Shown: in pieces, positions 47,743 through 64,000 of the stretch
Layout: each line of letters begins with the position of its first letter
Position numbering within the stretch: the first letter of the stretch is position 1
From: Taibaiella koreensis
GTDB taxonomy: Bacteria; Bacteroidota; Bacteroidia; Chitinophagales; Chitinophagaceae
Direction: 5' to 3'
Length of the DNA stretch: 64,000 nt
Assembly: GCF_003545715.1 (NCBI RefSeq)
Contig: NZ_QVNU01000001.1
Location: 1,481,962 to 1,545,961 of the forward strand
The notes under the pieces: generated by a model
Database searches by the model: none
Told to the model about the DNA's origin: nothing
What the model saw: only the letters and a program-made list of their open reading frames with translations
Position numbers and translations under genes: made by a program

Positions 47743-48087
47743 GCCCGATGTATGCTGGTTGTAAGCGTATAGACGGTCACGGAAGCATTAATGTTTGTTA
47801 CCGGAAGTTTAATTTTTCAGTAGCAGGGCGAATGCTTCGGAACATGCGATAATAGCCGGGAGCAGGTATCCTGTTTGCTCAGGTTTCCCTTTCCGGATGG
47901 CGATGCCAGGTAAGCAACGAGCACACGCTGTAAAGATGTGTTTCTTGCCGTAATGCCCTGTAATGCCTGCCGGAAGGTGTTTTCACGGGGTACGCCAGAA
48001 AAAAAATACAAGCAAAATGATACACCTGGAGCAAGATAGGTACTATTTTCAACGCCAGAAACCAAATTGATAACCAAAACACGATCC
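47743..48087. other. intergenic region with a possible minus-strand small ORF
   Basis: The promoters of the AraC gene and of the lipoprotein gene must be here. A minus-strand frame ending at 47817 reads like protein (ENTFRQALQGITARN, LQRVLVAYLASPSGKGNL) from about 48015, with only a TTG as start. It may be a small gene or a remnant. Confidence 0.3.
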
Positions 48088-49878
48088 ATGTACAACATTA
48101 CAAAAACTACTTTCTCCCTTCTCGTTTCCGGTGTCCTGTTATGGGGTTGCGGCAACGAGCCGCATTCCGGAAAAGAGGCGGTAAGTACCGGGGGAGCCAT
48201 CGGTCTGCCACAGGATGTCAAAGCCTCCTGTGTCGTTACTGCCGATTCGTTCAATGCCTGGTTTGCCTCTGGCAATGCTACAGCGAATGGCTTGGTTACG
48301 CCGGCCAATAGTGTAGCCTTCCCTCATCAAGATAATTGTGATTTTTACCAATGGGCCAACCGGATGTTTCTTTGGATCACCTCTCCCTCTTCCGGTATCT
48401 ATGGTCAGGCCAATACGATACTGGAATCGCCCACCTTTTTCAGCGTTTCTCCTCCCGATTCCACCGGACATAGGGTGTTGATACCCCATGCGGCCAATAC
48501 GCTGTTGCGGATGAGCGGTGGTCTGCAAAAGAACGGTCCCAACCGCTTGCCGGTGATCAGGAGCCGGAATGGCGGCCTGTACGAAATTGAGAATGCCCGA
48601 TCGCTTCCCGGCAAGATGCTGGTAAAAGGCGCCGCAAACAATCCGGTTGAAGTGGATCATGTGGAGCGGGATGCTTCCGGCAAGGTCGTGTTCCTGGATA
48701 AAGCAGGCAAGCCGATCGAGCACCCCCGGGCCATCATACAGCACAAGGCCAAGCGGGATCATATTGTTCACCGGTTCGCAGTAGGCAAAGGGTTCGTTTT
48801 CCTGGATCAGGAGGGCAATATAATCGAGTCTGAGGAAGGCCAGGCTACAGGCGATGCATTGATGGCTAAGAACGGCTCCCTGGTATATTACCTGAGCTTT
48901 GTCAACGATGTATATGCCTATTACCTCACTGGTGTAAGCAACGGCCAGCTGAACGGCGCCCGGTTTCCTACTACCGCCGGTGCCCGCGACAGCATCTGTG
49001 CCTTTGCGAGAGCCAACAACGTCACGCTGCCCGACTCCAATGCGCTGGCCATGGAGCTGAAGACTTCCTGGGTAGAAGCTGCAGGCCTATCCGACGCCGA
49101 CCAATACATTACGGTAATGGCTACGATACCGGTATATGATACATCCAGCCCCGGACAATGGATTCCTACAGGCGAGCGGACAGCCAAAATGGCCCTGGTG
49201 GGCGTCCATATTGTAGGCAGTGTAGCGGGACACCCGGAAATGGTATGGGCTACCTTCGAGCATAAAAATAACACGCCGAATGCAGCCTATAGCTATGTCG
49301 ACAGCACCGGTAATACAAAAACGGTAGCACAGGATCAGGGAACACACTGGCTCTTTAACACCAATGCCGCCGATACACCCTATAATGTTTCTCATATGAG
49401 CGCTTCGGGCGATACGATCAGGGCCAATGCCGGCTTCGGTATCAGTCCGAGCAATACTTTGCGGGCTATGCCCTGGGGTAGTGCGATGGATTCTCTGACG
49501 AATCAGCAGGATCTCAGCTCGGCTGCTTCCAATAGCGAGATCCTGTCGATCAATAATGTGATGCAGCGTTTGCTGGTAGGTAATGATATACGGAAAAACT
49601 ACCTGTTCATTGGTGCTACCTGGACCTTCGGTGGTGCTGCCCCCAACGGTGGTACCTATGGCGCCGATACCACGGTGGGTGTATCTATAGGTACCAATGT
49701 GCTTGCCAACAGTACGATGGAGACTTATCTGCAAACCACTTCATCTTCCTGCTTCAGCTGCCATAGCGGCTTCAACGGGCCTTCGCTGCTTCCCGGCGAC
49801 CTGAGCCATATCTTCAACCACCTGAAACCCCTGATTAACGCATACGATAGTCGCAGAAAAGCACCTGCTAAGAAATAA
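48088..49878 (+). CDS. lipoprotein with a C-terminal C-type haem motif
   Basis: 596 residues. The start at 48088 gives a lipoprotein signal with Cys21 (LLWGC). The mature protein is mixed alpha/beta over 500 residues with no recognised domain (QWANRMFLWITSPSSG, PGKMLVKGAANNPVEVDHVE). A single haem-binding CxxCH is present near the end (C555, C558, H559 in SCFSCHSGF), with no obvious distal Met motif near it except that the next residues continue PSLLPGDLSHIFNHLKPL. It could be an electron carrier domain attached to an unknown surface protein. It is membrane-anchored in the periplasm or exposed on the surface. Confidence 0.7.
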   Translation: MYNITKTTFSLLVSGVLLWGCGNEPHSGKEAVSTGGAIGLPQDVKASCVVTADSFNAWFASGNATANGLVTPANSVAFPHQDNCDFYQWANRMFLWITSPSSGIYGQANTILESPTFFSVSPPDSTGHRVLIPHAANTLLRMSGGLQKNGPNRLPVIRSRNGGLYEIENARSLPGKMLVKGAANNPVEVDHVERDASGKVVFLDKAGKPIEHPRAIIQHKAKRDHIVHRFAVGKGFVFLDQEGNIIESEEGQATGDALMAKNGSLVYYLSFVNDVYAYYLTGVSNGQLNGARFPTTAGARDSICAFARANNVTLPDSNALAMELKTSWVEAAGLSDADQYITVMATIPVYDTSSPGQWIPTGERTAKMALVGVHIVGSVAGHPEMVWATFEHKNNTPNAAYSYVDSTGNTKTVAQDQGTHWLFNTNAADTPYNVSHMSASGDTIRANAGFGISPSNTLRAMPWGSAMDSLTNQQDLSSAASNSEILSINNVMQRLLVGNDIRKNYLFIGATWTFGGAAPNGGTYGADTTVGVSIGTNVLANSTMETYLQTTSSSCFSCHSGFNGPSLLPGDLSHIFNHLKPLINAYDSRRKAPAKK

Positions 49879-50299: not shown

Positions 50300-50716
50300 G
50301 CGCCCGCCTTTATGTTTCCTATGGCTTTCTAGTAATGCATATGGCATGCTGACGGGCGGTCGTGCCATGCGCTGTCATTTCTCTTTAATCCCATAAATGC
50401 CCTTCTGCTACACAGCAGAAACCTGGGTTCGCTGCCCGTTTTTCTCCTTCCGCATCCGCGTGTTTCTACGTGTTTTTGAAAAGGGGGCTTTGTACGCTAG
50501 TTTAAGCGCCTGTTTTTCTGTCATTTTACGGTATAAAACCAAGCCGCCGGAATTGCTGGCCATTGCTGCCTGAACCGTTGTAAAGATAAAGATGCTTTGC
50601 TGATCATTGCCTTGTCCGGTCCGGACCGGCTGTAACCCGGTTTTATATATTGAAGGTCTCTGTATACTGTTAGCAGTGTGCAGTGCCTATTTCAAACCGT
50701 ATCAAAAAGCAGGGTT
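50300..50716. other. long leader region of the giant-protein operon
   Basis: No gene was seen. It contains a hairpin TTCTGCT-ACAC-AGCAGAA (50403-50420), a 14-bp perfect palindrome CCGGTCCGGACCGG (50616-50629) and an AT-rich stretch (TTTTATATATTGAAGG at 50641-50656) that may contain the promoter. No perfect TAnnTTTG was found. Confidence 0.5.
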
Positions 50717-53700
50717 ATGCCGACCACAACAACCATAGGCCCCAACGCGATCAACCCGATAGCCATGCAGATCGGCACCTTGATCGGGTTGTTCATCAAG
50801 GATAAGGACAGCTATGCGCTCAATACCGAATGGTTTAAGAATCCCTGGTCCTACATCAGCGCGATCCCTTCCAAACCTGAGCTGTTTGAGCTGCTCACTA
50901 CGCTGATGGGAAGTGCCGGTGGCGATGCTCTGGGTGCGCCCAGGGAAGCGATGAACCGGATCTGGTACCCGATACTCAATCCCATAACACAAGGCAACGA
51001 ACTGCCCAAGCCTACAGGCGTTTATATCGTAACCAGCAAGCCGGTTGACGGCTTACCCACAGAGTTGGGGCTGGGCGCCTTGTACGACTGGGAATACGAG
51101 TCTTTTTCTATTCTTCCTTTTGCTTACTTCCCCATGATCAGCCTGCCTGCGACAGCAGGGGGCAGCTTTCAGTTCATTCTGGGGCAGGATAAGCATCCTG
51201 TTGAAACGGGCATCAACATTACCGGCGCCGATGGCGTGTTCAACACAGGGGGCGGTGATGCCAGCTTGTCTTTCGATGGTTTCCTTGCTGCCAGTAAGAT
51301 ATATTTTGCAGCAGGTCAGTATCCTTCGCTGGACCTTTGTTTCCTCAACCTGAAGCTGCCGGGCGAAAAGCAGGGCAGCAACCGTTCTTTATTTGACCTG
51401 ATCCAGAATGCCTCCGTACAACAAAGCATTACCGTGGCATTGTCGGTATTGGGCAGTCAGCTATGCCAGCTTGAGGGCGTCGCACAGACTGCAGGTAAAA
51501 TGGTGCATTCGCTCATGGAGCTGCTGGGCTTGTTGGGGCCGGTGCCTGGTATCGATTGGGATGCCCTGGTAAAAGATCCATCGAAAGTAGTGGCGATCTT
51601 TACCCAATGGTTACAGAATATCAGCAGCGATCAGGCCATACTCCGGTCCTGGCTCAACGACTGGTATTGCCTGTTTAAAGGTCTGGATGCTACTGATGAT
51701 AAAAACTATGTTACCGGTACCGGCACTCGTATCGATCCGCTTACGGCGAACCTGCTCACGTTTGACTTCGGACAAAACCTTTCGGTATTGTTCAACCTTA
51801 GCTTTGCCACAGTAAAGACAGAGGACGGCACTTTGGAACTCTATCCCGGCTTTAGCATCAGCACATCGCCGATTACACCGGTAAGCAGCGTTCCTGAATT
51901 TGGCGTACAAGTGCTGGCAGCGGCTGAAGTGCTTTGCTATCATATACCCGGTAAGGGAAAAGCCAATACGATCAGCTTTTTCCCGCGCTATAGCATCATG
52001 GCTTCTGCAGCCAATATTGTTGCCGGCAAACCGCTGTTTGCTGTGGCCGACGCTGTCGGGGATGGCGCTGCCGACGAGGCAAACCCCGCGGGTTTCAGCA
52101 TAGGCCGTATGGAAGTCGGTTTCACCTACGATAGCCTGGTCGCGGAGAGCAAGGTGCCCACACCCAATTTCAGACTGGTGGAGGTGCAAACGGCTATAGG
52201 CGCCTGGCCATTGGTCGACCTGTCCAACTTCAACGTTGAGACGCTACAGCAGGCGATAGGCCCCGTGGTGAGCAGCGCGATAAAAACCTTCTTCGGAGAA
52301 AATAATGCCTATGCGGAGGCAATGACGGCTGTGCTGGGCATCGATCCGCCGAAAGACTACCCCGGCGAGTGGCCCTTGAAAGATAAAATGCTGCTGTCGC
52401 CGCAAGAGCTGCCCTTGCTGATCAAAAATCCGTTTGCTGCGCTCGGCGCTTACTATTCGCGTTGCCTCAGCACCGACGATACAGAAGGCAATCCCTTGTT
52501 CCAACACCTGGTGTCTGCCTTTTCGATCCTCCTGGGTAGCGACAATACTACGGTTACCGGAGATGGTACCGAGCTTCACCCCTGGAGGATTCCCATGTTT
52601 ACGATCGGCACGGCGACGATCAACCTTGACATATGGAAGCCCGGCGACGAGCTGCTGGGCATTGCATTCGACTTTACCATACCCTTACCAATCGACGCTG
52701 TAGCGGCGACATTCAGTCTTAACGCTGCGATGATGGTGCTGCAGCTGCCGGGCAACGATGGCGCCGGTACCTGGAATGCGGCCTGGATGCAGGCACTTAC
52801 AGGCAGGTTGCAGATCAAAGATGCCAAAGAAGAGCGGCTGCAAACACCGCAGATCGGTGGTGTTGCTATTGCCGCAGCTGATGTATATGTCGAAGGCGGA
52901 TGGAAAAATACAGAGAGCTTCTTTGTAAAAGCCGGTATCGACAGCGTGGAATTGATATCCAGTGCGACAACGATCGACCTGGGCAATATTGAAATCGGCA
53001 CAGCCGGATGGAGCGTCGACCAGCTGAAGCAGTTTGCGCCGGCTATCGTGAACGGCCTCGGCCTGTTGCTGCTGGAGAATGGCGGTACGGTAGGCGTATG
53101 CCTGACCATAGCCCTGGGCCTGTTGCCTAATCTGCCGGAAGTATTCGATGGTTACAAGCATGAAGGTTATAACTTCCCAGTACCGGAATACCTGGTGCTT
53201 CCCGAAGGCTGGCCTGTGCTGGAAATAAAGCATTTCGACAATCCCTGGACAGATATTGTAACGCAGCTGAGCAACCTCTACGCTAACGAAGAGTTTATGA
53301 TCAGCCTGATGCAGGTGATCGGCTGGGGTATTACCGGCATCACACCCGGTGCGCCCGATATACAGCCGGTGGGCACCATGACCGATCCCTGGATCGTGAA
53401 CCTGCCCAATGTATTTGATATCGATCTGCTGACCTGGAAGGAAGGCAATCAAACCGGTATCGGTGCTCAGAAACAGTTTGCCATCAATGCCGCTGAAGGG
53501 GTGCAGATCGCTACCATCGTCCGCATTGATGTACCCGGTGTTAAGCTCGATGGCTTCACCGGTCCGGTAGATACCTATCCCGGCATAGCCCTGGTGACCA
53601 ATATACAGAATCCTGATGTGACCCTTCCGCTGGTCAACATCAACGATGAGCTGATCATTAATAAAGTACAATTGGGCGCCTTTTTACAGCTGCAGAATGG

Positions 53701-56700
53701 CGAATTGAAGCTGATCCCGGTGTTCCGTTTCCAGGGCGCACGTCTGCGCAAGGACGAAGTATTCAGGGATATCGAACTGATACCCGTAGATGGGAAACCC
53801 CAGTTTACGAGCAGCGATACCATGGCAGTATTCAATACGCTGCTGAATGCGATGATGAACGAATTGTCCGCTGCGGTACAGCAGCCGGGCTTTGTGCAAC
53901 TGCAATCGCTATTGGACATACTCGGATTACTTGGCGTGCTGGACGTTGCGATAGACAGTAAGACCAAACTAAAAGAATATTCGTTCAACCCCGGCGCCTG
54001 GGCCTCGATACTGGCCAATCCCGGCGGTTATTTCATGGCCAGGGTGCAGGCCGTGCTGAACAGCGACCAGCTGTGTGCAGCGTTGATCCAGTCGCTTGCG
54101 CAGCTGATGGGTTATAACAACTTCGATCTGCCTTTGTCCTGGCAAGGTGTGCAATTCCTGTTGCAGTCCCTGATGCTGGCAAAAGATTACAATGGCCAGT
54201 TTGTGCCGGTGTTTGATAATTGGCTCGCCCTTTTCAAAGATCCGGTAACCTACTTGCAGCAAAATGTAGCAGCACTGTTCAATAGCCCGGCGCTGATCCA
54301 GCAATTGGTGACCAGCGTCAGCAAGCTGCTGACCTTACCTGCCGCCGGTCTGGAAAAGTATTTCAGTGTCGATACCAGCGGTAAAATACTAACCGTTCAG
54401 ATTCCTACGGACAAGATATTCAAGATAGGCGACGAGCTGCGCCTTTACGCCAGCGTGGTGATCGATGTTAATTCCTATACGCTGACGAACAGCATAGCCC
54501 TGGGCTCACGTACACTCGATTCTGCTGTGACCTTTTTGTATGCACCCAGCTTTAAAGAGGGCAAGCTGAGTCATGACTATGGTATCTACCTGACCGGTAT
54601 ACCAGGCATGCCGCAAGCTTTCGCCCCCTTACCGCTATGGCCTTTCCCTGCAGATACGGCGCAATACCTGAAGCAGATAGGCTTCCAGGTACCCGTGACC
54701 TTACTCAGCTCTTTTGCCGTAAAATACCTGAATGAATACATCGTGCCGGTTAACCCGGCGGTCAACAACATCTTCCAGGTACTGGGGCTGACGACCGAGG
54801 TAGAGGGCGCCAAACAGATTGTACCGCTTACCGGCATCTTCATGAATCCTGCTGACTGGCTGCTGGGGCCCGATGTGTTGGGCGATGGCCAGGGCAATGT
54901 CGATCTTACCCGCCTGGGCAATCTACTATACGCTATCACCGATGCGGCAGGTATTAAGGTGGGTGATGTGACGCTGAAAGCATACAGTCATGATGGGAAG
55001 AACGATGGTGTAGAACTAACAGGCCTGCCCTGGGGCGTAACCTTTACCTTGTTTGCCAACAGGGAAGAAGGTGCGAACCTGAAGGGCAGCTTTAAACCGC
55101 CTTTGCCCGCTGCCGCGCCCAACATAACACTCGGTGCAGGCGTGGCCTTTGGTACGGCAAACGGCGTCAATGTGGACGGCGTTATCGACATGAGCTACGA
55201 TCTTGGGGACAACAATACCCTGGGCATTACAGCAGCATATGCCAAGCGGAAATTTACGCTTAATGCCCGGGCCAATACATCTGAATTCCTGCTGCTGCCT
55301 TTCGGAGGATTGAACCAGTTCCTGAACGAAGGAACTGCAGGTGTGTTGCTTACTATCATCGGGGATAAGCTTTTCAGTACCTACGATGCGTATGCGAAGA
55401 AAAATCCAGGCTCAGCTTTGATCCCGTTTGTGCAAAGTATAGAAACGCTTACCGGCATCAAAAGCGGGACAGACCTGTTCAATTTCTTTAATACTATCTA
55501 CCAGGATCCGCTCGGTCAGTTTACAGAAGCCAATATTACACAGGCACTCTCCAATATCAATGACTTTGTAACCGGTATACTCACTTTACAGGGCTTTAGC
55601 CTCAGTGCCAGCAAACAGATACTTCAGTACGAGCATACTTTTGGTATCGCGAAAGTGCTGATCGATATAGGCATCCGGGATATAGAAGGTACAAAGGTCT
55701 TCGGACTGTGGCTGAATCCTGTCGCCTCCTTTAGCTGGATGTCCCTCGGCCTGAACCAGACCGGAGTAGGTATTGCCTTACCTTTCGATTATAAGCAGCC
55801 TGATCTCCGGTATGAAGTAAACATCGCATTGGGAACGGATTTCAGCGCGTTTAAGATACCCAATGCACCACAACCGACACTCCTGTTCGGTCTGAAGGGT
55901 ACCTTGCAAGGCATGCAGGGCCCCATTCTGGAATGCTATCCGGTGAAAGTATCGGATGCCGACGGAACGCTGAAAATAGCCTTGCTGCCTACACCGGCCC
56001 TGCTGATCACAGGAAGGGCCAACGTGACCCTGGCACAATGGATGATCAATTTCGGAACGGAGTTCCTCATACCTTTTGCCGCCAATACCGCGCTGGGTGT
56101 GTCGGCTGTCAAGAACTGGCTCGACAAGACCAAGATCGGCACTATCGAAGGCGCTCCAGGCCTTGTGCTTACCGATTGGGGACTGCTGGTGAAGCAGGAT
56201 GGCAACTACTATCTTGCCAACCTGAGAGAAGCTTTTAATATCAATGATCCGGTGAGCATTGTTACCAAACTTATCTTCTCGGCGCTGAACCTGCTCGACG
56301 GGCAATGTGTAGTGCCGATAAAGGATCATGGCATTTATGTGCAAAGCAGCACCGAAGGCGACCTGAAGCGTTATGGCTTACGTATACAGATCACCGATAT
56401 AGAAGTGACCAGCGCGCTCAATAGCGATGGCGCCAAGCTGCTGTTCCAGATCGGCAAATACTATGGCGACCAGACAAAAGATGATAACTGGACAGGGCTG
56501 AAGAGCGATCCCGGCTTCGTGGCATACTTTATCAACCGGAACAGCAAAACCAGCGCACTGAGCTTCCAGCCTAAATTTGATCTCATTAGCGTAGGCCTGG
56601 ATTTTGCCGGCGCCAATGCGCAGAGTCCGCTGATCAATACCAAGGGGGTTACGATACAGTCCATTGAGCCACGGGCTTATGTCTCACTTGACTTCAACGG

Positions 56701-59700
56701 TACGCTGCGCACCGATTTTGGCGCGGGCATGATGCTGTATAGCCTTGGCGTACCCTTAGGGCCTGGCTTTGGTAACCAGGGCGGCAACAGCAACCCTGTA
56801 GCGCAAAACCTGCTTACTTCCGGTGGCAATCCCGGCAAGACCGATGCGATCAATCCTTCGTTCTCTATCTCCGCTTCTTATGTCTATAATGCAGGATCCT
56901 TCGACCTGCAGCTGTACGATGCCAACGGACTGCAGACCGACAAAATATGGATATCTATTATGCGGGCTTTCGGGCCGCTGCAATGCCGCAAAGTTGGCAT
57001 CGGCTGGAAAGGCGACAAAGAGCCGAAGCGGCTCGACTTCCTGTTTGATGGTCAGGTATCGCTTGCCGGCCTGATGGCCAACCTGGTGGAACTGGATATC
57101 GGTATCCCGATCACTGATCCTACTAATTACGGCGCTTACTCACTGGATCTCGCAGGACTGGACGTGTCCTATAATGCCGGGGCGGTTACCATCGGCGGCG
57201 GATTCCTGAAGGACGATTCCGCGGGCTATATCCAGTATACCGGGCAGGCCATGATCCAGACGGCCAGCTTCGGCATCGGCGCTTTCGGCTCTTATGCGCT
57301 CATCGATGGTCACCCCTCGTTATTTATTTTCGCCTACCTGAATGCGCCGCTGGGAGGCCCTCCCTGCTTCTTTATCAAGGGACTTTCAGGTGGCTTTGGG
57401 TACAATCGGACTATAAATATTCCCCCGGCCAACCAGATCGAGAATTTTCCTTTCGTGGCCGGTATACAAAAGCCCGCGGCGCTGGGTGGGGTAGATGGCA
57501 AAGCGCCCACCAATGAGCAGGCGCTCAAGGCGCTGGGCACTAAGATCGTACCGCCACAGCTGGGTTCCTATTGGGTTGCCGCAGGTATTATGTTCTCCTC
57601 GTTTGAGCTCATCGATTCCAAGGCTGTGCTGATGGTGATCTTCGGCAACGATTTCGAGATTGCCTTGCTGGGGCTGTCGGGCCTGTTGCTGCCAAAGACC
57701 GGCCGCACATACGTAGGCGCGCAGATCGCTTTCAAGGTAACCTATAAAGTTTCGACCGGCTTGCTGGCGATGGAAGCCGTGCTCACCTCCAATTCCTATG
57801 TAATCGATCCCAATTGCCGGCTCACCGGCGGCCTGGCCTTCTATGTATGGTTCAAGGATCAGCCCGATACCGGGGCCAGGGCAGGGGATTTTGTCTTTAC
57901 CCTGGGTGGCTATCACCCGGCCTTCAAAAAGCCGGCATACTATCCCGACGTGCCACGGTTAGGCTTCAGTTGGGCAGTAGGTGGCAACGTAAGCATCAAG
58001 GGTGGCGCTTACTTTGCGCTGACACCTTCGGCCGTAATGGCTGGCGGTTCGCTCGAAGCAGTATACCAGAGCGGCAACCTGAAAGCCTGGTTCACGGCTT
58101 ATGCCGATTTCCTGATCATGTGGAACCCGTTCTACTATGATATCAGGGTGGGGGTCAGCGTCGGGGCTTCCTATACGGTTCATTTCATCTGGACCACGAC
58201 GTTTAAAGTAGAGCTGGGCGCAGATGTTCACATCTGGGGACCGCCTATGGCCGGCAGCGTAACCGTACACTGGTGGGTGATCTCCTTTACGGTGAACTTC
58301 GGTGCTACCGATACGAAACCTAACGATACCCGTATTATAGATTGGAACGAATTCCAACCCTACTTCCTGCCCTCGGATAAGGCGCCGGCGACAGCGCCGC
58401 AACAGGAGCCGGAGCCGGAACCGGAAAAGACAACAAAGCAGCTTAAACGCGATGCCGCCGGCGTACAAACGGTACCAGTGCAGCAGGTGACCAATATTAA
58501 GCAGGTTACAGGTCTTATTAAAGAAATCCCGAACCCCGATACAAAAGTCAATACTGTCAGTCCTGTCCTATGGCGGGTAGGCGCCGATGGCTTCTCCTTT
58601 ACAGTAAGCACAGTAGTGCCACTTAATGAGATCAGCATAACGGGTGTACAGCAGAAGATCAGCAGCAATGTGAAGTTCGGTATCAGGCCTATGGGAAATG
58701 TCGTGTTCGGCACTAAAGATGCCATGTCTACGCTAAGCCTTTCCTTTAAGTATTACGATGCGCCTTACGACAAGCTGGACAACTGGAACATTAGCGGCGA
58801 TACCAACGGTATACCGGAATCGCTCTGGGGTACGAAGAACAACGGTAAAACGGAGATCAGTGCTGAGATCATTCCCGGCGCCCTCGTAGGACTCTCCGCA
58901 AGGATTGCTTCGGCGAGCGATGATCTTCCCCAGGACGGACCGCCGATGTTCCCCTTGTCAAACCTGGGCTATGCGGCCTGGGCCTGGCGTAAGCTCACCC
59001 TGGCCAATAATCCCTGGCTGCATCCCACTCAGCCTGCCGTCGCTTCGGATCAGTCCCTTATCATTATAGAAGATACCGTAATGGCGCCGGCTATCGCTAC
59101 CGTTCGTACCGCTATCCTGGAAGCTGTGGTGGGTGCCGGCATTAATGTAGGCACCGATGGACGGCTGGATCAAATGGCTGCTTATGCCAGCGATACGTTC
59201 CAGTCGTACCCGATGCTGGGCGAGCTGGGTAGCCTCGGTTACCAGCAGGCGCCACCACAAAGGATGTTGCAGGCGAAAACCCTTAGCCGTTCCGTTGCCC
59301 CTGCAGCCTTTAAAGCAAAGATACGCTCCGCTGCAGAGCCGGTTAAAATAAGGGCCGTAATGACGCAATATTCCCGTCCCGACCTGCCGTCTCCCGTATT
59401 CATGGCGGCCTCCCCCGATGAAGTGAAAATGATCCACCCGGTTAAGGGCAAGATGTACAGCGCCGATAAGTTGCCGCAAGGGCAGGCAGCCGCAATGGTA
59501 CAGGGACGCAACCTGGAAGCCGCGGCTGGTGGCAAGCCGGGACTGGAGCTGTTCCCCGGTGTCGCGGCCTTGCTGGACCTTGATCCCCTGGCTGCCGCGC
59601 CTTATCTGGATATTAGTGGTGACACGCCAGTGTTTGCAGCCTGGTTCGATGAAGATTATCAGCTTATCGGCAGCCGGGTATTGACAGGAAGCATAGCCTT

Positions 59701-60355
59701 GCCGCAGGGCGTCGCTGAGCTTTATGTAGCCGGCATCAGCACGGCTTCGCTGGAAATGCCCTATGCTTTTGGCTGGCATGTAACAGCGCAGCTCACTTTG
59801 GTAAATCCCAATGCGCTTACCGGTATTGGCGCCATTGTGGTCCCCGACAGTCCCATACGGGTGAAATACCTGCGCAGCTCCAGCGGCTTCGGCCTGCTGT
59901 CGGGTCAGACTTTTGTCAACGACAACCTGGTCAAGATAGGAGAACAGAGTGTGCCGGCCGGTATCAAAACTGTATTGCCGGGACAGGTGAATACCCTGGC
60001 TGTGCTGTCGAAGAAGCGATCGAAAAATACGCCCCTGGATCCCGCTTCCATCAAAGCCAGGATAAAGATCGATACCGGCGATGGTCCGGCGTATCAGGAT
60101 CTTACACCGGTACAAGTAGTTGACGGTGCTTATGAAGCTGCAGTGCTGTATACGCTGCCCGGGAATACCGGTTACGATGCCAGGATCATTTATACAACAT
60201 CGGATGCCGACACCTGGATATCGGGCGTGATGGGCCTGGCCGAAGAAGTGACCTACGTAGCGGAGAACTGGCAAAAAGTAGTGTTACAGCCTGCGCTGCC
60301 TTATCCTTATCCCGAAGCCGGAAGCGGTACACATATTTCCATAGGACCACAATAA
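50717..60355 (+). CDS. giant 3212-residue protein, DUF6603-like; first gene of an unknown system
   Basis: From the ATG at 50717 the protein has no signal peptide and no membrane anchor ([20 protein letters not shown]). The first 2000 residues alternate leucine-rich helical blocks ([37 protein letters not shown]) with amphipathic strands. Phrases such as [22 protein letters not shown] and [11 protein letters not shown] mark three repeated units near residues 345, 625 and 890. Residues about 2090-2530 resemble DUF6603 ([46 protein letters not shown]). A proline/glutamate linker ([18 protein letters not shown]) follows near residue 2555. The C-terminal 600 residues are a separate strand-rich region. 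The next gene starts 25 nt downstream. Function unknown. Confidence 0.8.
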
Positions 60356-60380
60356 TCCTAACCCAAACGAACCAGCGATC

Positions 60381-61910
60381 ATGAGAAATTCAGAATTCAT
60401 CATAAAGACGGCGGTTGCAGATCCGCAGGAACAGGAGCAGATGCGTTTGTATGATTTCTGCGCACCGCCGCTCAGCTCCGGCACCTATACCATCGAGACG
60501 ACGCAAAAGCTGGTTTGGGTAGATAAAAGCCTGAACCAGGAGTACAATAAAGTGCAGCAGTTCCTGGTCGATGGGCCGCGGTTTGCGTTGGATCCTTCGA
60601 CAGTATACTCCATTTTTCCGCCGGCTAACAAGCAGGGCCATTACGAGCTGTATGTGCCTAATATTGTGCTTACCCGGCGTACGCTTCCCTGGGAACGTAC
60701 GATAGATGGTAAGCAGCCTGCAGATCCGCCGGAGCCCTGGGTTGCGCTGATGATCTTTACAGAGGACGAAGTAGCCAAAGTAAGAAATGGTACAGTATCG
60801 GAGGTGGTAAGTCCATCCGATACCAAGGTGATGGGGCCGCAAGGTCTTCAGGTTACCGAAGAGGAAAAGGCGACACAATGTCTTATCGTAGACATTCCAA
60901 AGGCCACCTTTAGTGCTGTAGTGCCCGCCAGGACAGAATTGCGTGACCTGTCGCATTGCCGCGAGGTGGATATGGCCAACAAAGAGCTGCGCTCCGACGT
61001 TGTCGACGGATGGTTCTCCGTAGTGGTGGCTAATCGCTTTCCCACGCCGGGAAAGCTCAATTACGCTTGTCTCGTGTCCTTGGAAGGTTTCTCTGCTTAC
61101 CTCTATGGTGGAACGGCAATACCGGCGCAATACGATACCGTACGGATGGCTGTGCTGGCCAGCTGGAGCTTCACCGCGCTGGAAGTACAGGGCGAAACGT
61201 TTAAAGACCTGGTGCAAAATATCAATACTTGTTCCCTGCATCTTCCTAATAAGCCTGCCCAGGCGGATACAGATGCCGGTAAGCTGGTCGCAGCGGCCTT
61301 CCATGACGGATATGTAGCCATGAACTACCGGACCCGCCAGGGAGAGCAAACGGCTGCCTGGTATCGCGGCGCTTTCACACCGGTACAGCTGAGTGCCGTA
61401 AAAATGGAGCCTTTCTTTAGTTCTGAGTCGGGCATGATTTATGATCAGAAGACCGGCCTGTTCGATATGTCTTATGCGGTTGCCTGGCAGATCGGGCGGC
61501 TGCTTGCGCTGTCCGACACCGAGTTTTCAGTAGGGTTGATGAAATGGCGCAAAGAGCAAAAGGCAGCTCAGAACCTGAAGCTGGAACAGCATAACACCCT
61601 AAACCGTATGAAAGGTTTGTTTGCTGAGGCTGGTCCGCACCTGCTGGAAGCCGGCGATAAGCACGTGATAGCAGATCTTATTCATCAATTCCTGTCGACA
61701 GACTTTGCTACGCTTGTGCGTCCCAGGGAAGCGGCGGCAGCACCACTTATCCGTACCGGCGATCCTGGCGGCACAAAAGGGAAGACCGGCGATATGCCTG
61801 GATTGCTTTCCGAAGAGCAGGTTGCCGATCTGCTTCATTACGGTCCCCGGATGAAGGACCGCTTACAACAATTGATCATGGCCTCCGCAGGAGGTGATAA
61901 AGCCGAGTAA
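60381..61910 (+). CDS. 509-residue protein of unknown function, second gene of the giant operon
   Basis: No signal peptide or membrane helix. Residues 20-350 are mostly beta-rich with landmarks [34 protein letters not shown] and [34 protein letters not shown]; residues 350-440 are helical ([32 protein letters not shown]). The C-terminal tail is basic and helical. No family was recognised. It lies 25 nt after the giant gene and one base before the next start codon, so it is in the same transcript and probably the same complex. Confidence 0.75.
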
Positions 61911-61911
61911 C

Positions 61912-62862
61912 ATGAAAAAGAACTTGCCGGAAGCCGGTCAATATATTAACGCCCTTAAGGGGACTACACAGGTAAAGACCTTGCGTCTTTCGATGAATTT
62001 CCAGGAGAGTGTATTGCCGCCCGCATTGGAAGACTGGCTGGGCCGCCTTTCGCTGCTATACGGCGTGCCATTTGAGCACCTGGTACCCAATGCCGCTATG
62101 CTGCCCCTGGAGTCGCTGCGGTTTTTCTATGTTGATCCCAACTGGACCAGCTCGCTGGTAGATGGCGCCTTGAGTGTAGGTGCACAATCGTCGCGGGATA
62201 CGGCTTTGATTCGGTCGGTATATGAACAGGTGCAGCATAGCCTCGAAGCATCGATGCAATTGGTGCGGCGCCGGCTGGCGGGCGCCGAATTGCCGGAACA
62301 GGTGAATACCGGTATGGCGGTATCAGGACTGCTGATGCGGTCGCAGCTGGTATCTGGTTGGCCCGGCCTGGAGATTGCGGCATACGAGGATTACACCATC
62401 GATGGCAGACAGAATATTGTGCCGGTGGGTAAGATCGAAAATCTACGTATCCAAAGGCTGGCGCCCGATGTAATGCTTTGTCTCTATGGCAAAATGCCCA
62501 AGCTGGTGCAGTTAAACGAACCGAAGGAAGGGTTGGCCTTCGGCGTACGCAGCGACGGCAAGCTGGTGCCCCGGTATATGGGCTATCAGTCCGATCAGCC
62601 GGTAGGCGCTTTCGTGACGGGCAACCCCAAACCGGAGGATGAAACAGCAGTAGCGCGCAGAAGCGGCGGCCTCAACGTGATCGATGTCGCGGCCACCAAG
62701 GCCGGCCTGGTCACTATCCTGAACCGGTACAACGCTATGGGGCCTTCGGGTACGCTTACGCCTGCCGATTTTGGCATACAGCTGATCAAATCGGCGGAGC
62801 AGCAATCTTTCCTGAGTGGTACAGATACACAGCCCAATCCTAACGATTGCACCGATTATTAA
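61912..62862 (+). CDS. 316-residue protein of unknown function, third gene of the giant operon
   Basis: The ATG at 61912 is one base after the stop of the previous gene; a start at 61894 would overlap it. No signal peptide. Landmarks are LPPALEDWLGRLSLLYGVPF, PLESLRFFYVDPNWTSSLVD, GALSVGAQSSRDTALI and a C-terminal KSAEQQSFLSG. The phrase RFFYVDPNWTSSLVDGALS looks strongly constrained and should be a good search seed. No enzyme motif. The tight spacing suggests coupled translation with the 509-residue protein. Confidence 0.75.
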   Translation: MKKNLPEAGQYINALKGTTQVKTLRLSMNFQESVLPPALEDWLGRLSLLYGVPFEHLVPNAAMLPLESLRFFYVDPNWTSSLVDGALSVGAQSSRDTALIRSVYEQVQHSLEASMQLVRRRLAGAELPEQVNTGMAVSGLLMRSQLVSGWPGLEIAAYEDYTIDGRQNIVPVGKIENLRIQRLAPDVMLCLYGKMPKLVQLNEPKEGLAFGVRSDGKLVPRYMGYQSDQPVGAFVTGNPKPEDETAVARRSGGLNVIDVAATKAGLVTILNRYNAMGPSGTLTPADFGIQLIKSAEQQSFLSGTDTQPNPNDCTDY

Positions 62863-62888
62863 ACTCTTTCAACGGTAAAAACAAGATC

Positions 62889-64000
62889 ATGGCAAAAGCG
62901 GTCAAAAATACAGCAGCGCCCTTACTCTGGAACGGTCCTTCGTTGCTGGTGCCGGTGGATGTGGAAGCCCTGGTGGTATCGAAGCTGTCGCTGAATTATC
63001 CCTGGGCGTATAACAGGATGAAGTATAACAATGCCGGTAAGTTCCTGGACGTACGGCCCTCCATGTTCCAGGGCGCCGAGCGTCCCGGTGTGGGGGTAAC
63101 ACTCCACTGGGCGCTTCCCGACGGGATCACCCACGGCAGGCAGGAGGGTGAGCAGATCACGTATCCTTATGCACCCAACCGCTGGCTCATTATCCGTTAC
63201 TATGAAGGGAAGTCGAAATCCTGGATATTGCAAAGTGATTATCTCGATCCGAAAGACGGCGCCAACCTTTTTCTGAAGCCCGATGCAGCAACACCGACCT
63301 TGACCCGCATCGGTAAAGTATGGCCGGCCGCGCAATGGCCGGGAGAAGCGGCGGTGAGCCAGCAGCAGTTCCTGATGGCGCTGGGGCCGGGCAATCCCGC
63401 ATTCGCAGCATATACAGCCAATATCAACAATGTATTTTCTTTCTACGACGATATGAGTGATATCGTCGACAAGGAAGTGCCGGTATCATACACCGTAATG
63501 GGTTGGTATGGCAGTGCGCAGGATGATCCGCTCAATAAATTCAACACATTGGACGAATGGCTGGTGTTGATGGACAGTCTGAACTGGACAGTGGGTGACA
63601 ACAACGATATTCAAAAGGCGGTGAACGACTGGATGGCCTGGGCAAAGGCGAGCGGTATTCCTGTTGATCCGGATAAAGCAAAGGACATTTACCCTTCGCG
63701 TACTTTATGCCAGGGTATGATCTATAAAGTGAACTGGCTGGGACAGAATGGCGTGCCGCAGAGTGGCGTGCCGCAATACGATCCTGAAATGCCGGCCGAA
63801 AAGCAACCCCGGATCGCTATAGCCAATACGGCTATCGATGCGCTGGCTGCGCTGGTAGCTTATGAGCTCGACCTTACGGGGCAGGATGGGGAGGCCGCAG
63901 CCGAGTTGCTGGAAGCCTTTAACTATAACCTGCTGACAAAGTACCAGGAGCAGGGCGGACAATACCAGCTATACCGCGAGATATTTAAAGCCTGGTTCGG
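62889..64000 (+). CDS. fourth gene of the giant operon (3' partial)
   Basis: The frame is open from the ATG at 62889 to the window edge (370 codons), so the end is missing. No signal peptide. Landmarks are PLLWNGPSLLVPVDVEALVV, ERPGVGVTLHWALPDGITHG, YAPNRWLIIRYYEGKSKSWI, GWYGSAQDDPLNKF. The pattern of a conserved GVTLHWALPDG followed by PNRWLIIRYY suggests a widespread but unnamed family. It starts 26 nt after the previous stop and clearly belongs to the same transcript. Confidence 0.75.
   Translation, partial: MAKAVKNTAAPLLWNGPSLLVPVDVEALVVSKLSLNYPWAYNRMKYNNAGKFLDVRPSMFQGAERPGVGVTLHWALPDGITHGRQEGEQITYPYAPNRWLIIRYYEGKSKSWILQSDYLDPKDGANLFLKPDAATPTLTRIGKVWPAAQWPGEAAVSQQQFLMALGPGNPAFAAYTANINNVFSFYDDMSDIVDKEVPVSYTVMGWYGSAQDDPLNKFNTLDEWLVLMDSLNWTVGDNNDIQKAVNDWMAWAKASGIPVDPDKAKDIYPSRTLCQGMIYKVNWLGQNGVPQSGVPQYDPEMPAEKQPRIAIANTAIDALAALVAYELDLTGQDGEAAAELLEAFNYNLLTKYQEQGGQYQLYREIFKAWF

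Follow-up and report, generated by a model that had tools for sequence, protein, structure and literature searches.

A conserved gene core around a DUF6603 giant protein points to an undescribed molecular machine, possibly for the targeting and delivery of enzymes

What might a bacterium build from a protein of 3212 residues and the partner proteins encoded directly after it? The genes in question lie at the end of a 64,000-nucleotide stretch of the Taibaiella koreensis genome (contig NZ_QVNU01000001.1, positions 1,481,962 to 1,545,961; hereafter the window, with positions counted from its first letter). Here, we show, from comparisons of sequence, that the DUF6603 domain of the giant (g1) and the products of the next three genes (g2, g3 and g4) are a conserved, widely scattered core. 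Two slots flank it: the upstream one holds differing proteins, some of them enzyme-like, and the downstream one proteins of recognition type. Together, core and partners suggest a molecular machine that has not been described before and that might target and deliver enzymes. The core genes, as called from open reading frames (ORFs), are:

50717 to 60355, plus strand: g1, giant protein of 3212 residues (ORF 50678-60355, in-frame ATG at 50717)
60381 to 61910, plus strand: g2, 509 residues, no known family (ORF call)
61912 to 62862, plus strand: g3, 316 residues, no known family (ORF 61894-62862, start ATG at 61912)
62889 to 64000, plus strand: g4, no known family, 5' part in the window (full gene of 1209 residues, ending at window-equivalent position 66518)

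The original prediction, made from the letters of the window, had described four same-direction genes with gaps of 25, 1 and 26 nucleotides and a "DUF6603-like" giant, and both points are borne out. Residues 2083-2577 of g1 (window 56963-58447) match Pfam PF20248 (DUF6603) at 491.5 bits against a cut-off of 27 and cover positions 3-479 of the 502 in the profile, so that g1 carries a nearly full-length domain and belongs to the family. No other Pfam family matches g1 at E 1, and its N-terminal part contains a diverged internal repeat (residues 397-527 align with 931-1052 at an hhalign E of 4.8e-5, better than the other nine segment pairs compared). PF20248 is itself named as a family of unknown function, and the partners belong to none of the libraries searched: g2 and g3 have no Pfam match at E 1, and the sole Pfam match of g4, in its first part, is UBA_4 at 0.52; NCBIfam gave nothing for g1, g2 and g3 and chance-level matches only for g4 (0.0043 and 0.064); PHROGs gave nothing for g2, g3 and DUF6603 and one match for g4 at E 0.089; and PADLOC left the core proteins without a match, except for one of g3 at E 0.022. 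Profile searches of the PDB (with profiles of 47 sequences for g2, 47 for g3, 39 for g4 and 51 for DUF6603) returned nothing convincing, with no match at E 1 for g2 and g3, one at 0.95 for DUF6603 and mostly helical proteins for g4 (best 0.006). Because no relative was found for three of the four core proteins, we regard the core as new as a system. The word "undescribed" in the original prediction holds within the 5.39 million open papers searched, which contain no mention of DUF6603 or PF20248 (subscription papers and preprints lie mostly outside it).

How widely is this core kept together? When 84,980 species were scanned with an alignment of four g3 sequences, 55 loci emerged. They represent 11 bacterial phyla (18 loci in Pseudomonadota, 12 in Bacteroidota, 8 in Cyanobacteriota, 6 in Bacillota, 3 in Acidobacteriota and 1 in each of six further phyla), an archaeon (Methanoculleus, 1 locus) and an unplaced lineage (1 locus), and many are metagenome bins in which stray contigs are possible. 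Gene calls at these loci are longest-ORF picks, unreliable where GC content is high, and core counts were therefore taken from six-frame profile searches, whose profiles contain rows of the same loci, so that matches are partly by construction. These searches found g3 in 55 loci (by choice), g2 in 54, DUF6603 in 51 and g4 in 47. The order DUF6603-g2-g3-g4 occurs in 41 of the 55, across eight bacterial phyla and the archaeon; the remaining orders are DUF6603-g2-g3 (8 loci), g2-g3-g4 (3), g4-DUF6603-g2-g3 (2) and g3-g4 (1). The 4 loci without DUF6603 (L020, L033, L049 and L066) start at a contig end. The full order is absent from all 8 cyanobacterial loci: g4 is missing within the stretch in 6 and lies upstream in 2. 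Median gaps are 16 nucleotides between DUF6603 and g2 (47 pairs), 1 between g2 and g3 (29) and -1 between g3 and g4 (39), with outliers that stem from the gene calls. In 16 of the 55 loci g2 and g3 are fused, as they also are in genome G188 and in two plasmid loci.

Since the 55 loci were baited with g3, a g2 or g4 without g3 could not appear among them; two samples were free of that bait. Of 247 genomes drawn evenly from the class, 4 carry g3; g4 is found in these 4 and no others, and one of them (G114, a Mucilaginibacter bin) is also locus L018 of the 55. The g2 profile matches strongly in those 4, with weak matches (E 4e-9 to 8e-4) in a further 4 genomes, and DUF6603 is present in 9 genomes (8 above the cut-off), including all 4 with g3. 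Among 72,556 plasmid records, g2 and g3 occur in the same 8, of which 3 are Streptomyces clavuligerus records nearly equal in length. DUF6603 is found in 9 plasmid records, 7 of them shared with g2 and g3; on a Paenibacillus sonchi plasmid g2 and g3 occur but DUF6603 does not, and a Streptomyces NBC_01276 record carries DUF6603, a joined g2-g3 protein and g4 in a row. That these genes act together had been read from the gene order at one locus; the partner searches across phyla, the order in 41 of 55 loci, the fusions and the co-occurrence in 4 of 247 genomes and 8 plasmids now support it.

Within the families, conservation is concentrated in short stretches. Across 47 rows of g3, which contains the stretch LPxESxRFFYxDxNW, D75, G85 and A86 are invariant and P65, E67, S68, R70, F71, F72 and W78 nearly so; in g2 (47 rows) P103, W104 and W120 are near-invariant; and in g4 (39 rows) G69 and P77 are invariant and L72 and L76 near-invariant. 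The patterned phrases of the three partners, which had been said to look conserved, do fall on conserved alignment columns. The nearest named relative at the locus is Taibaiella helva (g3 89% identical), against which the ratio of nonsynonymous to synonymous change (dN/dS) is 0.056 for g1 (2805 codons), 0.054 for g2, 0.040 for g3 and 0.046 for g4; the other six operon genes range from 0.042 to 0.130, and dS exceeds 1 throughout, so that all these ratios are rough. Being low, they indicate purifying selection on g1 and show that g1-g4 are real genes. The most conserved block of g1 in this comparison lies inside DUF6603 (98% identical). On the g3 tree, 14 phylum changes are needed where the minimum is 9 and shuffles average 25.9 (0 of 200 as low), and well supported mixed pairs join Methanoculleus with genome G188 and Moorena with Azospirillum. 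The tree thus fits, without proving, horizontal transfer of g3: the changes exceed the minimum, yet phyla cluster far more than in the shuffles.

Is the giant ever found without these partners? The original prediction had named a giant found alone as a case that would speak against it. DUF6603 is strong without g3 and g4 in 4 genomes of the draw and at a second locus in G111, and there it adjoins other large proteins in another kind of cluster, type B: DUF6603, a protein of 1071-1269 residues that resembles g2 weakly (E 2.9e-11 to 3.1e-4), a protein of 1635-2221 residues and then one of about 581-607 residues (two of these last are cut by the stretch, and L078 is cut inside the third gene). 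A relative of this last protein, of about 590 residues, follows DUF6603 and large unnamed proteins on plasmids of Streptomyces europaeiscabiei, Rhizobium and Salinigranum. Upstream of type-B DUF6603 are a PhoD-like and a C15-peptidase-like protein (above cut-off, both in the source genome) and a Nal1-like peptidase just below it. The source genome (5.94 Mb, 24 contigs, 99.65% complete) contains a further two DUF6603 genes, which lie where contigs end (L008 on C4 and L009 on C19), and a type-B g2-like gene near the end of another contig (L089, C1), and because of these it probably carries type B as well; similar DUF6603 copies probably broke the assembly there. In the haloarchaeal type-B cluster of the Salinigranum marinum plasmid (L088), the relative sits inside a longer "lamin tail domain" protein, followed by a propeller protein of the pyrroloquinoline quinone (PQQ) type of about 1640 residues, and a BGTF surface domain gene is also annotated. 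An unannotated 40-kb phage record from faeces (MT835531.1, 30109-31815) encodes another relative (30% identity, 72% covered, E 9e-24), so type B may have a phage link. For the core as found in the window (type A), a phage origin was considered and set aside: no relatives of g3 or DUF6603 occur in 50,697 phage records and none was confirmed in viral contigs, where one of the two checks rests on one peptide pattern.

What surrounds the core varies. A same-strand ORF lies within 400 nucleotides before the DUF6603 gene in 31 loci (that of L025 is probably false), and jackhmmer sorted these upstream ORFs into six mutually unlinked groups plus singletons: a group linked to metallo-beta-lactamases (MBL; L015, L047, L053, L059, L060 and L074, with L063/L064 joined through L060), proteins of 161-164 residues (L016, L055, L057 and L068), and L040/L044, L051/L062, L054/L069 and L065/L071. 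Among 29 upstream genes, PADLOC matched LmuA in 5 (best 1.1e-19), RTasMBL in 5 (3.8e-18), PDC-M48B in 5 and Avs1a in 4, and one protein also matched the NCBIfam Avs1a model, though its 38 bits fall far short of the cut-off, 420. The upstream protein of L038 has an HExxH motif and an M91 match below cut-off, and that of L061 a DUF4135 match; in one Pfam batch, 7 of 10 upstream proteins had no match or only one at E 0.028 or 0.033.

Downstream, the flanking DNA past base 64000, which the original prediction had marked for study, supplies the end of g4 and six more same-strand genes, so that "four-gene operon" was too small a description, as it is also for the existence of type B. The run from g1 to g10 (about ten genes) reaches window-equivalent position 72324 and is followed by an opposite-strand gene; no Bacteroidota-type promoter consensus was found before g1. 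The additional genes, given in window-equivalent positions past the window's end, are:

66527 to 68572, plus strand: g5, 681 residues, Kelch
68613 to 69722, plus strand: g6, 369 residues
69750 to 70679, plus strand: g7, 309 residues
70742 to 71113, plus strand: g8, 123 residues
71398 to 71778, plus strand: g9, 126 residues
71842 to 72324, plus strand: g10, 160 residues

A small domain is common to g6, g7, g8 and g9. The part of g5 before its Kelch repeats looks Ig-like, with a sub-threshold NEW3 match, and its middle (residues 149-262) matches a virion-structural PHROG at E 8.7e-11. Five jackhmmer rounds from the first 150 residues of g5 found a related region, counted at any position, in 46 ORFs (at least 2 being duplicates of overlapping stretches), and a satellite with this region lies within 4.5 kb after g4 in 24 of the 40 loci able to show it. 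In g10, a stretch RVDxLF...EIKCQS is conserved in three species (one row reads ELKCQS). This stretch may be a PD-(D/E)XK nuclease motif, although no database hit points to one; Pfam gave PapG_N alone, at E 0.03. As the window and L014 lack an upstream slot gene, the enzyme there would be g10. By Pfam, and counting from the 25 commonest of 82 and 128 families in flanks of at most 10 kb that include plain neighbours, 55 same-strand neighbours comprise Hom_end_hint (5), Fib_succ_major (4; presumably a C-lectin-like fold), MBL (3), LamG (2), S74 (2) and lactonase propeller (2) matches, and 138 same-strand neighbours collar (3), MBL (3) and collagen (2).

Further neighbours were seen at single loci. 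A protein with AMP-binding, ketosynthase and acyltransferase domains follows a Kelch satellite in Telmatospirillum (L032, 16404-20903), and a related one occurs in Paracoccus (L039, 16350-20825). YhdP-type genes, maybe plain neighbours, lie a few kb past g4 in three Hydrogenophaga loci (L034, L037 and L041); conflict-type genes lie a few kb from the core on a Streptomyces plasmid; and five Bacillota loci (L058, L063, L064, L065 and L071) have related proteins of 565-621 residues near the core, one with a Hint match. On the Paenibacillus polymyxa plasmid p-YT9A (L081, NZ_CP133769.1, 13179-44480), the DUF6603 cluster is preceded, at a distance of about 8 to 14 kb, by two "phage baseplate assembly protein V" genes, a DUF4280 gene and a short gene for a GH-E nuclease, a link we consider weak; no sheath gene is among those listed in the stretches read, where the gene table is incomplete. 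In the window itself, a protein of 603 residues (48067-49878, plus strand) ends 838 nucleotides before g1; by eye it has a lipoprotein-like start and a CxxCH near its end, it has no Pfam match, and it is probably separate from the operon.

What could the giant look like, and where would it act? A structure prediction, also suggested at the outset, was run for residues 1760-2820 of g1 and has a mean predicted local distance difference test score (pLDDT) of 79.5, most ten-residue blocks of DUF6603 lying at about 83-96. The model contains 33 strands of at least 7 residues with alternating hydrophobicity (mean difference 2.56 against 1.45 in shuffles, 0 of 2000 as high), in a sheet that we take for antiparallel. 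Foldseek gave 11 matches at E 0.001, among them LptD (best, 6.2e-6), ApoB100 (5.3e-4), SlpA and the SDBC complex; normalised by query length, the TM-scores of the 11 lie between 0.07 and 0.18. We read the predicted domain as a large amphipathic run of strands and not as having a family tie to these proteins. For a fused g2-g3 homologue (Acidovorax bin, L038; the window's g2 and g3 entered as alignment rows), the model has a pLDDT of 82.8 and its g2 part is mostly beta, with helices after; Foldseek found nothing at E 0.001 for it among solved or predicted viral structures (best 0.035 and 0.026). The claim that the core proteins lack a signal peptide or membrane anchor agrees with a crude hydropathy test, applied to g1-g5 and g7-g9: none of these eight has a hydrophobic core in its first 40 residues, and the best 19-residue Kyte-Doolittle means are 1.66 (g1) and 1.77 (g9), both borderline, and at most 1.54 in the other proteins tested.

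In light of these features, what might the system do? Our leading reading, to which we give a probability of about 0.35, is a hitherto unknown complex of modular build that takes enzymes to a target it recognises. Such a modular, multi-protein machine would be made in the cytosol, with the long amphipathic strand run of DUF6603 as its body, completed by g4 and by g2 and g3 as one unit, sometimes one chain. The region shared with g5 would dock satellites onto the core; satellite parts such as the Kelch propeller, Fib_succ_major, LamG, collar, S74 and collagen would bind the target; and the cargo would consist of the slot enzymes, which include MBL hydrolases and perhaps also proteases and nucleases. 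Because the tested window proteins have no export signal, we propose that some producer cells would lyse and so free the particle, in the manner of contractile injection particles; the amphipathic sheet would contact or pass through the target membrane. Assembly into a particle, the role of the enzymes as its cargo and its exit from the cell are points that we infer by analogy with such injection systems. The bolder form of this proposal seems to us rather doubtful: a new class of particle for delivery, shared by bacteria and archaea and with no kinship to phage tails, in which a giant amphipathic DUF6603 body is closed off by dedicated proteins and fitted with plug-in binders and enzymes, in at least two lineages (A and B).

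A close parallel lies with extracellular contractile injection systems (eCIS), for which one study describes S74 and tail-fibre proteins, toxin cargo and release by lysis (PMC8213781). The likeness is one of gene logic (a core without export signals, S74, collar and fibre-like proteins, variable enzymes, presence in bacteria and archaea). Membership was rejected: the source genome has no contractile sheath (PF17482, with a control matched in 3 of 14 genomes), and no search tied the core to phage tail proteins, PHROGs included. The same two results mean that nothing ties the core to a delivery device, and this weighs against enzyme delivery together with several other observations. Sixteen of the 40 loci have no g5-region satellite; the collar-type satellites of L042 and L043 start with a membrane or signal-like segment, which does not suit a purely cytosolic set; 8 of the 29 scanned upstream genes encode proteins below 200 residues (161-199) that look non-enzymatic; the window and L014 lack a gene directly before g1; and no lysis or immunity gene was noticed in the window's operon, where no search by name was made. 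The 5 of 29 slot genes that match defence MBLs fit an immune system equally well.

On that last reading, which we consider a credible competitor and still unlikely, core and satellites would sense an invader inside the cell and switch on the slot enzyme, and the cell would be killed or arrested. The MBL effectors of AVAST type I, Lamassu and DRT-associated systems resemble our loci in that an MBL enzyme of this kind occupies 5 of 29 upstream slots, where LmuA and RTasMBL (5 of 29) and Avs1a (4 of 29) are matched; AVAST and Lamassu systems also have a nucleoside triphosphatase (NTPase) or other known sensor. The scattered distribution and the conflict-type genes on the Streptomyces plasmid suit it too. 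Related MBL nucleases move between unrelated immune systems and serve both AVAST and Hachiman, according to one report (PMC12799240), and it is from this that the reading draws its argument. However, Pfam and NCBIfam searches of the window's core turned up no known family of sensors, whether NTPase, STAND or another, the operon there has no MBL match, the only PADLOC match of a core protein is the marginal one of g3, 24 of 29 slot genes have no LmuA match, and the satellites carry surface-recognition domains.

A lipid-handling assembly, the other main rival, in which a soluble amphipathic DUF6603 sheet wraps or conducts lipid with g2-g4 as caps, appears less probable again. The amphipathic strands, the LptD and ApoB100 matches and the YhdP-type genes past three Hydrogenophaga clusters all favour it, and the original suggestion of a lipid-handling bridge has thereby gained a weak structural hint and nothing stronger. 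With apolipoprotein B and bridge-like lipid-transfer proteins g1 shares great size and a long amphipathic strand run, but no common sequence family and only weak local structural matches. Bridge-like and AsmA proteins belong to the chorein or AsmA sequence families, of which Pfam finds neither in g1 at E 1, DUF6603 being its single match. As the TM-scores are low and the other matches are porins, ushers and S-layer complexes, Foldseek may be reporting just a long run of strands, and the enzyme slot and recognition satellites would be left unexplained. An outer-membrane beta-barrel is at odds with the lack of an export signal peptide in g1 (by the crude test) and with homologues in Bacillota and an archaeon. 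The same eight operon proteins without an export signal, and the enzyme-like upstream genes, count against an adhesion apparatus of the cell surface or matrix exported by an unrecognised route; this we find improbable, even with the collagen, LamG, Kelch and collar satellites, the signal-like starts of two collar proteins and the BGTF, lamin tail and PQQ propeller annotations of the haloarchaeal type-B cluster in its favour. That unrelated genes are together by chance or through a shared regulator would suit the scattered distribution and nothing else found; the fixed order, the fusions and the co-occurrence leave it a negligible share.

These are large protein families without known relatives, kept in a fixed order in eight bacterial phyla and an archaeon and accompanied by slots in which enzymes and binders are swapped. 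An undescribed system has thus become testable: the core names the proteins to produce, the fusions tell where parts make contact, and the slots mark what can be exchanged. Should the system deliver enzymes, nature would have yielded a nanomachine of a new kind; should it serve immunity, known effectors would be grouped around a core not seen before.

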